A DNA stretch of 64,000 bases, from assembly GCA_900111695.1 (NCBI GenBank), contig FOHD01000008.1, forward strand, positions 27,995-91,994, read 5' to 3'. Every line of letters starts with the position of its first letter. Within the stretch, counting starts at the first letter, position 1. The stretch is from Olsenella sp. KH3B4. GTDB lineage: Bacteria > Actinomycetota > Coriobacteriia > Coriobacteriales > Atopobiaceae. Under the pieces are notes generated by a model. The model ran no database searches. It saw nothing but the letters and a program-made list of their open reading frames with translations, and was not told the origin of the DNA. Shown here piece after piece: positions 36,726 to 40,147 of the stretch. Both the position numbers and the translations under genes were made by a program.

Positions 36726-37817
36726 CTAGGCTTGTGCGCCCGGGTTGCTGGGCGCGTCTTGGGCACCGCCGTTGCTTGCGCGGCCTCGCACGCGCTTGGC
36801 GATGCGGTCGGTGAGCGAGAGCTTCTCGCGGCGGTCGGTGCCCCAGAAGACGAGGGCCACCATGCCCGGTCCCACGTGGGTCCCCAGGATGGGCGAGACC
36901 GAGGAGCGAATGACGGTGACGTCCTCGCAGCCCTTCTCCTTGCGGATCTCGTGCTCGAGCCAGTCCGCGTCCTTCTCGGCGTCGGTCGAGACGATGGCAA
37001 GCGGGAGTGACGAATCGTGGGCGTAGTTGTCGCGGAAGTCCTGGATGATGGCCCGCAGCGCCTTCTTGCGGCCGCGGCACATGCCGCGCAGCGTGAGGGC
37101 GCCGTTGAGGTCATAGGAGAGCTCGGGCTTTATGTCGAGCTTGCCGCCCACGTTTGCGGCTGCGGGCGGGATACGACCGCCTGCGGCAAGCGCGTCAAAG
37201 CTGTCGAGCGTGAAGTAGCCGTGGATGAAGTAGCGCGCGTCGGACGCCCAGTCGTAGAGCTCGCGCGCCGAGAGGCCGTTGGACGCCTGGCGCACGACCT
37301 CGATGGCAAGAAGCTCGCCGGCAGCGGAGTCGCAGCGGTTGTCCAGGACGTAGATCTCGGTTCCGGGGCGCTTCTCGCAAAGCATCTCCGCCGCCTGGCG
37401 GGCGGCGTTGATGGAGGACGAGAGGCCCTCGGAGAGCCCCATGTAGATGATGGGCAGGCCCTCCTCGGCCGCCTTCTCGAAGACGTCGAGGTAGCGGCCG
37501 GGCGTCACCGCGCTGGTGGTGTAGTGGGTCTCTGGATGCTTGCGCATGTTCTCGTAGAACTCGTGCGGATCTTGGGTCTTCCACATGTCATCCACGTGCT
37601 CCACGCCATCGGAGTCCACGTAGGTGAAGGGTATGACCTCGACACCGAGCTGCTCGGCCACGCCCGGGGCGTAGTCGGACGTTGAGTCGACGATGATGGT
37701 GACGTTGCGCCTCTGATGGTAGCGCCGGCCAACGCCTGCGACGTCGGCCGGTGCCTGTGACGATTGGGGAGCTTCCTCCTGGGCGCTTATGGTCTTCTGG
37801 TCCTTCTCTTCTGCCAT
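36726..37817 (-). CDS. degV: DegV family fatty-acid-binding protein
   Basis: 363 aa. A disordered N-terminal extension of about 37 residues (rich in Gln, Glu, Ala) precedes a full DegV domain: VTIIVDSTSDYAPGVAEQLGV, IPFTYVDSDG, HYTTSAVTPGRYLDVFEKA, IYMGLSEGLSSSINAARQA, LDNRCDSAAGELLAIE, and a C-terminal SPILGTHVGPGMVALVFWG. DegV/FakB proteins hold a fatty acid for phosphorylation by FakA. Starts 18 bp after the hpf stop on the same strand, so the two may be cotranscribed. Confidence 0.92.
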   Translation of the reverse strand: MAEEKDQKTISAQEEAPQSSQAPADVAGVGRRYHQRRNVTIIVDSTSDYAPGVAEQLGVEVIPFTYVDSDGVEHVDDMWKTQDPHEFYENMRKHPETHYTTSAVTPGRYLDVFEKAAEEGLPIIYMGLSEGLSSSINAARQAAEMLCEKRPGTEIYVLDNRCDSAAGELLAIEVVRQASNGLSARELYDWASDARYFIHGYFTLDSFDALAAGGRIPPAAANVGGKLDIKPELSYDLNGALTLRGMCRGRKKALRAIIQDFRDNYAHDSSLPLAIVSTDAEKDADWLEHEIRKEKGCEDVTVIRSSVSPILGTHVGPGMVALVFWGTDRREKLSLTDRIAKRVRGRASNGGAQDAPSNPGAQA

Positions 37818-37835: not shown

Positions 37836-38426
37836 TTACGCGTCTGGATTTTCCTCGACCTTGGGCTTGATGATGCCGTACCCGCCATTTTTCCTATGGT
37901 AAATGACGTTGACCAGGCCGGTGGTGGCGTTTGTGAACACATAGAAATCATGGCCGAGAAGGTCGGTCTGGACAAGGGCCTCCTCCTCGCTCATGGGCGT
38001 GAGCTCGACGTACTTCTCGCGCACGAGTTGGTCGTCTTCCTCCTCCGGTGCGGGCGTGATGAGGTTTGCGAGCTCGTCCGCGCTGGGAACGGGCGCCGGT
38101 GGCATCTGGGAGCGCTGGCGACGGTCGATGACGCGTGTCTTGTACTTGCGCAGCTGGCGGGTGACCTTGTCGGACGCCTCGTCGATGGCGGCGTACATGT
38201 CGTCAGCGCTGGCGACCACGCGCACCACGTTCTTGCGCACGAAGACCGTGACCTCACAGGTCTTGCGATCCGGGTTCGAAGGGTTCTTGTCGACGCGAAG
38301 CACGACGTCGCAGCTCATGGGCGAGATGTCGAATACCTTAAGAGCATCCCCTATTTTCTCGTTGACGCGGTCACGCAGCGCGTCAGAAACGGTGACCTTG
38401 CGGCCCGAGATCTTGATGTCAACCAT
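37836..38426 (-). CDS. hpf: Long-form ribosome hibernation promoting factor
   Basis: 196 aa: N-terminal HPF/RaiA domain (1 to about 100; MVDIKISGRKVTVSDALRD, TCEVTVFVRKNVVRVV, DDMYAAIDEASDKVTRQLRKYK), a linker, then the C-terminal dimerisation domain (about 135-196; VRTKYVEL-type segment VREKYVELTPMSEEEALVQ, LGHDFYVFTNATTG). The long form pairs ribosomes into inactive 100S dimers. ATG 38426 with GGAGG six bases upstream. A structured RNA with its own promoter lies just upstream. Confidence 0.94.
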   Translation of the reverse strand: MVDIKISGRKVTVSDALRDRVNEKIGDALKVFDISPMSCDVVLRVDKNPSNPDRKTCEVTVFVRKNVVRVVASADDMYAAIDEASDKVTRQLRKYKTRVIDRRQRSQMPPAPVPSADELANLITPAPEEEDDQLVREKYVELTPMSEEEALVQTDLLGHDFYVFTNATTGLVNVIYHRKNGGYGIIKPKVEENPDA

Positions 38427-38631
38427 GCGTGCCTCCAATCGATTGCCCTGCCATCCCCGCGCAAGCACCGACGCGAGTCTGGCCGTATTTGGTTGGTACC
38501 CAAAGCTGCCTCGCGTTACGCGCTGAGGCGGTGGGCGCACTGATATGGACAGTGGACGCAGGCTGGGACGGATGCGGAGGTTGAGAAGCTGTGCCGGAGC
38601 CGGAGCCGGAGTCGGAGCCGGAGAGAGCATA
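38427..38631. other. Spacer between the structured RNA and hpf
   Basis: No gene. It contains a GGAGCC-type simple repeat (38594-38625) next to the RNA 3' stem and probably the hpf promoter, which I could not fix. Confidence 0.5.
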
Positions 38632-38892
38632 GCGTTCCACCCAGCTGACCTGGTATTCGACCCCACACTCGCGCACCGGGGTCTCCGCTTTGGGGCTACA
38701 CGGCCCCTCACTCACGACCCTCTCGCCCGCGAGGCCGTATGCCTCTTGTCTAACGGGCGGTGCGACTTACCTCTAGGACGAGCCGTGCTCGCCGCAGGGC
38801 GCACCCCACGGCTTACGTGGATCCTTTTGGCCTCGTCTGCCATGAACTAGGGCGCACGCATACGCCCGCAACCACAGACCTGGGTGGAACGC
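38632..38892 (-). ncRNA. Structured RNA upstream of hpf, probable raiA-motif RNA
   Basis: 261 nt on the minus strand. A perfect 13-bp closing stem joins the ends (GCGTTCCACCCAG at 38892-38880 with its complement at 38644-38632). Inside lie several hairpins: GGGCG/CGCCC (38867-38863 with 38854-38850), CCACG/CGTGG, GGGGC/GCCCC (38707-38703 with 38696-38692) and GACCCC/GGGGTC (38683-38678 with 38664-38659). An extended -10 promoter ends seven bases before the stem. The raiA motif is a known conserved RNA of Actinobacteria and Firmicutes usually sited upstream of raiA/hpf; position and architecture fit. I cannot run a covariance model, so the class name is probable, the structured RNA itself well supported. 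Confidence 0.72.
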
Positions 38893-38897
38893 AGGAG

Positions 38898-38906
38898 ATT
38901 ATAGCA
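38898..38906 (-). promoter_or_regulatory. Extended -10 promoter for the structured RNA
   Basis: TGCTATAAT on the minus strand: a perfect TATAAT with the TGN extension, placing the transcription start at the first bases of the closing stem (about 38891). No good -35 is present, as expected for extended -10 promoters. Confidence 0.7.
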
Positions 38907-39015
38907 GGCAGCAGGCGGTCGCCAGTCACCATGGGGTACCTCGCGGGGCAAAAGCGCTGTCAGAGCAGCCAGATAAGACGGTTTCAGACCCCTCTCGCGC
39001 AAGTGAGTGGGCCCA

Positions 39016-39219
39016 AATTACGTGCAAAAGTGAGGTTGTGTGGATTCTGACATGGAGATGAGGCGCCCTTCGTCGCCCTCGCGGCCAAGCAAGAGGGGTG
39101 CCCAAGGACATTTTGCCTGTTGACAGGCTCCGCTGAGCAGTCTGTTGGCCATCACATTCCTGGTGGCTAGCCTTGGAGGCTCGACCGACTTACACACAAC
39201 CTCACTTTTGCACGTAATT
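39016..39219. repeat. Long inverted repeat B3 (perfect 27-bp arms, 150-bp loop)
   Basis: 39016-39042 (starts AATTACGTGCAAAAG) and 39193-39219 are exact reverse complements over 27 bp. The 150-bp loop has no convincing ORF. The element fills most of the gap between the RNA promoter and comF. Related in form, not in arm sequence, to B1 and B2. Confidence 0.85.
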
Positions 39220-39310
39220 GGCGCATACAAGAAACGCGAGGGAGCTCCGCTCGCCCATCTGAGCCCGGTTTTGCACCAACCCGCCTGCGCCGGGGGTTGC
39301 ATTGCGTCGC

Positions 39311-40069
39311 TCACCACACGCGAGCAAGCGCGCACGCCGTGACCGACGAGGCGCCGCGCGCGAGAAGCGCCCTCGTGGCCTCGCGCACCGATGCGCCCGT
39401 GGTTACCACGTCGTCGAGCAAGAGCAGGTCAAGGCCCGAGACGTCGTCGCGAACCGAGATGGTGCCCGCAAGGTTAGCCGCGCGTTCTTCTCGCCCCAGA
39501 GTGCGCTGGTCACGCGAGTGTGGACGCACGAGGACGTCGGCGAGCTCGATGCCCATCTCGCGACAGAGCGCGCGGGAGACGAGTTCCATGTGGTCAAAGC
39601 CTCGCCGAGCAAACGCCGCCGAGGTCGCGGGCACAAAGCATGCGGCGTCGATGGCCTGCGAGTCGAAGCGTGCGCAGCCGTCGTGCGCCGACCAGGCGGA
39701 GGCCTCGTCGAGAGCCGTTGCCATAGCTGCCGCGATTACAGGAGCCAGGCGCAGCTCGTGGGCATCCTTCAGGCACGAGACCATGCGGGCGGGCGTGCCG
39801 GAAAACCCAAGCGCGCAGATGGTCGCGCGCGTCTCCCAGTCGTGTGAGCACTCGGTGCAGGTGAGAAACCCAAACGGGGCCCCACAGTCGGGACACGCCC
39901 AGCGCTGGGCAATCCAGGGAAGCGATTCTCGGCACTCCTCGCAGACCAGCTCGCCGGGCATCTCGCAGGAGACGCAACGCGTTGGCCACAGAAGCTCGGC
40001 GGCACCGGAGGCTAGAAACGACGCGCCAGCGGAGAGACGGTCCAGAGCGCTACGGGCTTCAAGCGACAT
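39311..40069 (-). CDS. comF: ComF family phosphoribosyltransferase-like protein
   Basis: 252 aa from ATG 40069 (MSLEARSALDRL). N-terminal zinc-finger-like cysteine pairs CVSCEMPGELVCEEC and CPDCGAPFGFLTCTEC, then a type I phosphoribosyltransferase fold ending with the PRPP loop LLLLDDVVTTGASVREA. ComF proteins assist DNA uptake during natural transformation in competent bacteria. No other competence gene is in this window. Monocistronic by spacing. Confidence 0.9.
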   Translation of the reverse strand: MSLEARSALDRLSAGASFLASGAAELLWPTRCVSCEMPGELVCEECRESLPWIAQRWACPDCGAPFGFLTCTECSHDWETRATICALGFSGTPARMVSCLKDAHELRLAPVIAAAMATALDEASAWSAHDGCARFDSQAIDAACFVPATSAAFARRGFDHMELVSRALCREMGIELADVLVRPHSRDQRTLGREERAANLAGTISVRDDVSGLDLLLLDDVVTTGASVREATRALLARGASSVTACALARVW

Positions 40070-40147
40070 GCGACCCCCATCGCTTGCGCGAACGGGGGTC
40101 GCATCGGTTGGATTCGATGGTAGCACGCGACGCCGCGGCCGCGGTCC

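Follow-up and report, generated by a model that had tools for sequence, protein, structure and literature searches.

The best described raiA/ModT RNAs are clostridial. In Clostridioides difficile, ModT is produced from one SigA-type promoter as isoforms of 260 and 215 nt and is very abundant in growth (PMC11706538). The parts of that study available to us describe a growth-phase RNA acting in trans, clostridial knock-outs that are complemented in trans, and connections of the RNA in clostridia with sporulation and with c-di-GMP (PMC11706538). Three-dimensional structures of raiA RNAs have been published (PMC11751092, PMC12286853), the molecule being a monomer according to the latter; in the Clostridium acetobutylicum structure, the pseudoknot pk-1 consists of seven pairs and pk-2 of only two Watson-Crick pairs (PMC11751092). 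Frequent neighbours of these RNAs are raiA/hpf, periplasmic-binding-protein genes and comFC (PMC11477304). The known phenotypes, as far as the sources available to us report them, are all clostridial, one of them with a link to c-di-GMP. Acetohalobium arabaticum is presented as the single actinomycetotal orthologue in PMC11706538; the NCBI taxonomy places this species in Bacillota, so that the parts of that paper at our disposal contain no test of an actinomycetotal raiA RNA. In the literature searched, we found no paper on raiA RNA in coriobacteria.

The window (the whole stretch of 64,000 nucleotides that was analysed) belongs to such a coriobacterium: the nearest named relatives in a comparison of its Hpf protein are Tractidigestivibacter montrealensis, placed by taxonomy in the Atopobiaceae within Coriobacteriia, and Olsenella species. 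The first-pass annotation had recognized on its minus strand a structured RNA fitting the raiA motif and had proposed to score it with the corresponding Rfam covariance model. Run here, this scoring gave a significant match to RF03072 (raiA) of 156.2 bits (E 4.5e-39), far over the gathering score of 101.3 bits, at window positions 38636-38888 (minus strand), covering the model over its full length (positions 1-209 of 209) and bearing out the assignment. In a genome-wide search the window copy was the sole match over the cut-off, and a second one (9.7 bits, E 6.2) was discarded as weak. The window RNA is a genuine raiA/ModT copy and, within this known class of RNAs, an ordinary member. Its predicted body of 261 nt (38632..38892, minus strand), delimited by the RF03072 match, the complementarity of its arms and covariation, is closed by the 13-bp stem P1, whose 5′ arm (38880..38892) and 3′ arm (38632..38644) are 100% complementary over 13 nt; the perfect stem joining both ends that had been read from the letters is indeed there. 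Folding of the minus strand gave -134.9 kcal/mol, compared with -113.5 kcal/mol (sd 4.6) in 200 shuffles (z -4.67), none of which reached as low a value. Like the RNAs of C. difficile and C. acetobutylicum, the window copy has a full-length model match, P1, pk-1 and a length in the range of ~210-260 nt; unlike the clostridial ones, it has a high G+C content (0.66 in the matched part).

Covariation was analysed in an alignment of 97 distinct Coriobacteriia copies, in which the identical pair L004/L005 was entered once, over 33 pairs belonging to P1, P3b, pk-1 and two further helices. These pairs are formed in 95.2% of the alignment cells, and 25 of them have changed on both sides, versus 18.4 in shuffled controls. 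The covariation score was 0.494, versus 0.231 after shuffling and 0.09-0.13 when the partners were slid. All 13 pairs of P1 have changed on both sides somewhere in the alignment and 91.8% of their cells are paired, the pairing becoming weaker outwards (the four outermost pairs are unpaired in 33, 20, 13, and 4 of the 97 sequences). The stem first noticed in a single sequence is therefore conserved in related genomes through compensatory changes. The loop strand of pk-1 (AGACGAG, 38832..38838, minus strand) pairs with its partner strand in the pk-loop (38776..38782, minus strand); with the pk-1 columns assigned by us through matching of the numbering in the accessible part of PMC11751092 to the Rfam model, six of the seven pairs are intact in all 97 sequences, three of these with changes on both sides, while at the seventh the window has A-C and 47 of the 97 sequences show no pairing. 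The predicted fold, with P1, P3b, the two further helices and pk-1, is demonstrated by this covariation.

Upstream of the RNA, the extended -10 promoter element TGCTATAAT (38898..38906, minus strand) ends 5 nt (38897-38893) ahead of P1. Transcription is expected to start about 7 nt past a -10 box, which, given this distance, would place the start at ~38893-38890, at the first bases of P1. The first-pass annotation had located the promoter right at the stem; the element is present and conserved, but the 5-nt gap keeps it from touching P1. In the 98 Coriobacteriia loci that we compared, drawn from the higher-scoring RF03072 hits listed among genomes of the class, so that low-scoring ones are under-represented, the motif TGnTAnnnT ends 6-12 nt ahead of the RF03072 start in 82, and in 79 of these the offset is 8, 9, or 10 nt (66/75 by genus). 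Its background frequency is 0.6% of upstream windows, and counting offsets of 2-16 nt gives 83 of 98. By eye, most of the 16 loci devoid of TGnTAnnnT carry a TATAAT-like box without TG in the same place. A sigma-70 scan requiring a -35 box found nothing at the window RNA, in line with a promoter of the extended -10 type. The predicted element TGCTATAAT is not a chance match and, as far as sequence can tell, its near-fixed offset across the class upholds the claim that the RNA has its own promoter and makes the first bases of P1 the most likely start of the RNA. An own promoter at the 5′ end is also found in the clostridial raiA/ModT RNAs, as is, in C. difficile, a comFC(-like) gene upstream (according to the part of PMC11477304 consulted); the extended -10 type, with no -35 box by scan, distinguishes the window copy from them.

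Taken as a whole, the best explanation is that of a noncoding raiA/ModT RNA of an Atopobiaceae bacterium that acts in trans and not mainly in cis, which we consider quite likely. A housekeeping-type RNA polymerase would start at the base of P1, and the RNA, by analogy with its clostridial homologues, would take the compact raiA structure and be an abundant growth-phase RNA that acts in trans.

The window RNA is flanked by comFC (39311..40126, minus strand; Pfam PF00156 and PF18912), its usual upstream neighbour, and by hpf, encoding a long-form ribosome hibernation factor (37836..38426, minus strand; Pfam PF02482 and PF16321, S30AE and S30AE_C), after which comes a degV-family gene (36726..37817, minus strand; Pfam PF02645). 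The two flanking genes fit the known raiA neighbourhood. The window copy resembles the other Coriobacteriia raiA RNAs in its fold, in the nearly equal offset of its -10 element and in having comFC upstream, as in 90 of the 98 loci. In nine of these 90 (e.g., L155, L163, L164, L170, and L172) the upstream comFC relative is encoded on the opposite strand, so that co-transcription with the RNA does not occur there. The order comFC-RNA-hpf is shared with other Actinomycetota: in a set of 20 loci, one per family, chosen from 73 genomes outside the class with an RF03072 match, hpf follows the RNA in 18 and comFC precedes it in 17. The position directly upstream of hpf noted at first holds for the window; it is not usual in Coriobacteriia, 87 of whose 98 loci have another gene in between.

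This arrangement suggests an alternative, namely that in the window's genus the RNA is a cis-acting, riboswitch-like leader controlling hpf, as the Rfam type label "Cis-reg; riboswitch" would have it. The RNA lies on the hpf strand, 205 nt upstream, a terminator scan of the minus strand between both found none in this spacer (38427..38631), and hpf is the next gene in nearly all loci of the other Actinomycetota. We nevertheless consider this alternative improbable. The gap between RNA and hpf, counted from the model end, ranges from 209 to 558 nt across genomes of the genus; another gene stands right behind the RNA in most loci of the class; and clostridial knock-outs are complemented in trans, as the available part of PMC11706538 reports. 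Moreover, hpf has a conserved block of its own: among 52 coriobacterial loci (L040-L091), 46 have GGGTAY 50-100 nt ahead of hpf, against a background of 2.2% of windows. In the window this block is GGGTAC (38496..38501, minus strand), a possible -10 box; no clear -35 box was seen near it. The block resembles, and perhaps is, a -10 box of the kind used by stress sigma factors. Its conservation suggests that hpf is under its own control and is probably served by a separate promoter. Separate expression of the RNA and hpf is plausible, although the scan detected no terminator between the two. A main role in the cis control of hpf was rejected on account of the variable gap and the separate hpf block. 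The same spacer contains the GGA-rich tract that had been pointed out on the 3′ side of the RNA: it exists, as a short GCCGGA tandem (38593-38616, plus strand), but it is absent by eye from the gaps of six sister loci and was discarded as a conserved part.

The gene that separates the RNA from hpf in 87 of the 98 Coriobacteriia loci encodes a family-3 solute-binding protein (called with Pfam PF00497 in two examples and with a profile built here in the rest), and its absence sets the window copy apart from them. The median distance from P1 to its likely start codon is 33 nt, and the distance is ≤50 nt in 73 of the 87 loci, as would be found for a 5′ leader, with start codons picked by a simple score that leaves a few of them doubtful. 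The gaps between P1 and the gene usually contain a ribosome-binding-site-like stretch and only in 11 of the 87 cases TTTT; being so short, they hardly leave room for a terminator in most of these loci. Eleven loci lack the gene, eight from the window's genus plus L160, L025, and L029, and have hpf next at ~170-560 nt. Elsewhere in the eight genomes of the genus we only detected distant paralogues of the solute-binding protein (24-30% identity, E 2e-9 to 4e-12), whereas, outside the genus, 21 of 22 relatives gave matches with E 3e-22 to 1e-69, the other one, 57% complete, having no match. Remnants of the gene in the RNA-hpf gap were also sought and rejected, the best tblastn hit (E 0.046) being no credible match. 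None of the 20 loci of other Actinomycetota has a solute-binding-protein gene next to the RNA. The simplest reading of this distribution is that in Coriobacteriia the gene was inserted between the RNA and hpf and later disappeared from at least three lineages, all of which kept the RNA; the count of three comes from a partly resolved tree of Hpf only (17 unresolved forks for 50 inner branches, and several long branches). On this tree, absence of a solute-binding-protein gene ahead of hpf, used as a label, requires five changes over 14 rows. One of these rows, L080, is cut by a contig end, and four others (L087, L088, L090, and L091) show no RNA near hpf in a sequence search; the remaining nine form the three lineages. 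The RNA of a further locus with hpf and comFC, L067, was missed by the single-sequence search.

These loci invite a second alternative, in which the RNA is, or formerly was, a cis-acting leader of the coriobacterial solute-binding-protein gene and the window copy a relic left after the loss of that gene. The leader-like spacing in most of the loci studied, with a ribosome-binding site apparently at hand, would fit a cis-regulatory RNA there, and the window's genus indeed lacks a close relative of the gene. A relic should decay; yet all eight genomes of the genus keep the RNA with scores of 151-157 bits, and the window copy retains P1 and all but one of the pk-1 pairs. In addition, the RNA stands without this gene in each of the chosen loci of other Actinomycetota. 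We thus regard this alternative as very improbable. The persistence of the RNA in lineages devoid of the gene speaks for a role independent of it, and control of the usual downstream solute-binding-protein gene is unlikely to be the core role of the RNA. As for a chance structured region containing no RNA gene, the high G+C content, with which sequences readily fold well, is its one argument, and we give it practically no credence since it is refuted by the RF03072 match as well as by the fold z-score, the covariation, and the promoter element at a near-fixed offset.

Returning to the trans-acting RNA, its 3′ end would lie near the base of P1. In C. difficile, ModT has two termination sites (in the part of PMC11706538 consulted), whereas behind the window copy no terminator was found, so that the end probably arises when a longer transcript is cut or trimmed. 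We scored as U-rich any locus with five or more T in the eight positions right behind P1, a threshold of our own choosing. The window copy, with four T in eight, stays under it, unlike nine of the 20 loci of other Actinomycetota; these compare with 15 of the 98 in Coriobacteriia (Fisher p 0.005). Within Coriobacteriia, U-rich stretches follow P1 in five of the 11 loci without the solute-binding-protein gene and in 10 of the 87 with it (Fisher p 0.012). Both comparisons are weak because the rows are related, and four of the five loci in the former group (L004, L005, L006, and L008, the fifth being L029) come from one genus, two of them being identical. That genus is the window's own, and the four represent half of its eight loci; their U-rich stretches speak for termination over processing in those sister loci and argue against processing as the only route in the genus, where they might terminate transcription instead. 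Such stretches are perhaps terminators regained once the RNA had become free-standing. If so, free-standing copies may end at P1 plus U residues, and leader-like copies would need processing.

RF03072 matches occur in 236 of 246 Coriobacteriia genomes and in 216 of the 219 good-quality assemblies; ten genomes of the class show no RNA, three of them among the good assemblies. In 246 genomes drawn from the whole phylum we found the RNA in 94, 21 of which are Coriobacteriia. Two class genomes, G126 (L137 and L138) and G191 (L143 and L144), have two copies each on separate contigs, possibly as a result of mixed bins. A search with the Spo0A_C profile, positive for the Bacillus subtilis control, detected Spo0A, the product of the master gene of sporulation, in none of the 246 Coriobacteriia genomes, in contrast with the clostridial hosts, and GGDEF domains were detected in 164, with the proviso that absence in a profile search is no proof of absence because diverged domains can be missed. 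By hand cross-tabulation, 155 of the 236 RNA-bearing genomes have GGDEF and 81 do not; nine of the ten RNA-less genomes have it. Considering the lack of detectable Spo0A and the many RNA-bearing genomes without GGDEF, sporulation, or c-di-GMP as a requirement, is unlikely to be the core role of the RNA. General control of the transition from growth to stationary phase would fit best. In the window's genus, GGDEF was detected in two of the eight genomes, the window's included, and in none of the other six. Four GGDEF matches exceed the cut-off in the window's genome, the best with 74.8 bits (E 1.1e-20), which leaves room for a c-di-GMP role in this strain. They are located at G000:C14:218084-222328 and G000:C9:348505-348944 (L211 and L213), two in a 1570-aa frame and two in an apparently interrupted frame.

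A wider evolutionary scenario, possible but tentative and held with more doubt than belief, would join these observations. The raiA RNA of Coriobacteriia would have become the 5′ leader of the solute-binding-protein mRNA, losing its own terminator and being processed out of that mRNA at the base of P1; a single promoter would then yield both a trans-acting RNA and a message. The message would have disappeared from the window's genus and from at least two other lineages while the RNA persisted, in some cases with a U-rich stretch again, and its core role in the growth transition would predate sporulation and c-di-GMP and depend on neither. The recount of U-rich loci makes the processing step less likely for the genus of the window. 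Whereas the types of neighbouring genes were already known (PMC11477304, in the part available), we did not find the leader geometry across the class, the recurrent lack of the gene beside a retained RNA, or the Spo0A and GGDEF counts in the literature searched. The added value of the locus is this context: the copy stands free, in a lineage from which the usual neighbour gene is missing, and its host class has no Spo0A that could be detected. RNA-bearing coriobacteria with neither Spo0A nor, in many cases, GGDEF domains in detectable form offer a clean setting for its core role, and lineages without the solute-binding-protein gene separate effects in trans from those in cis.

The interval between comFC and the RNA contains a MITE-like element of 214 bp (window 39011-39224), whose 32-nt terminal inverted repeats are 94% complementary. 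A check of six sister loci did not reveal these ends. Nine further places in the genome were examined, of which eight carry both ends at similar spacing and one a single end. Five copies were aligned, and their interiors are strongly diverged.
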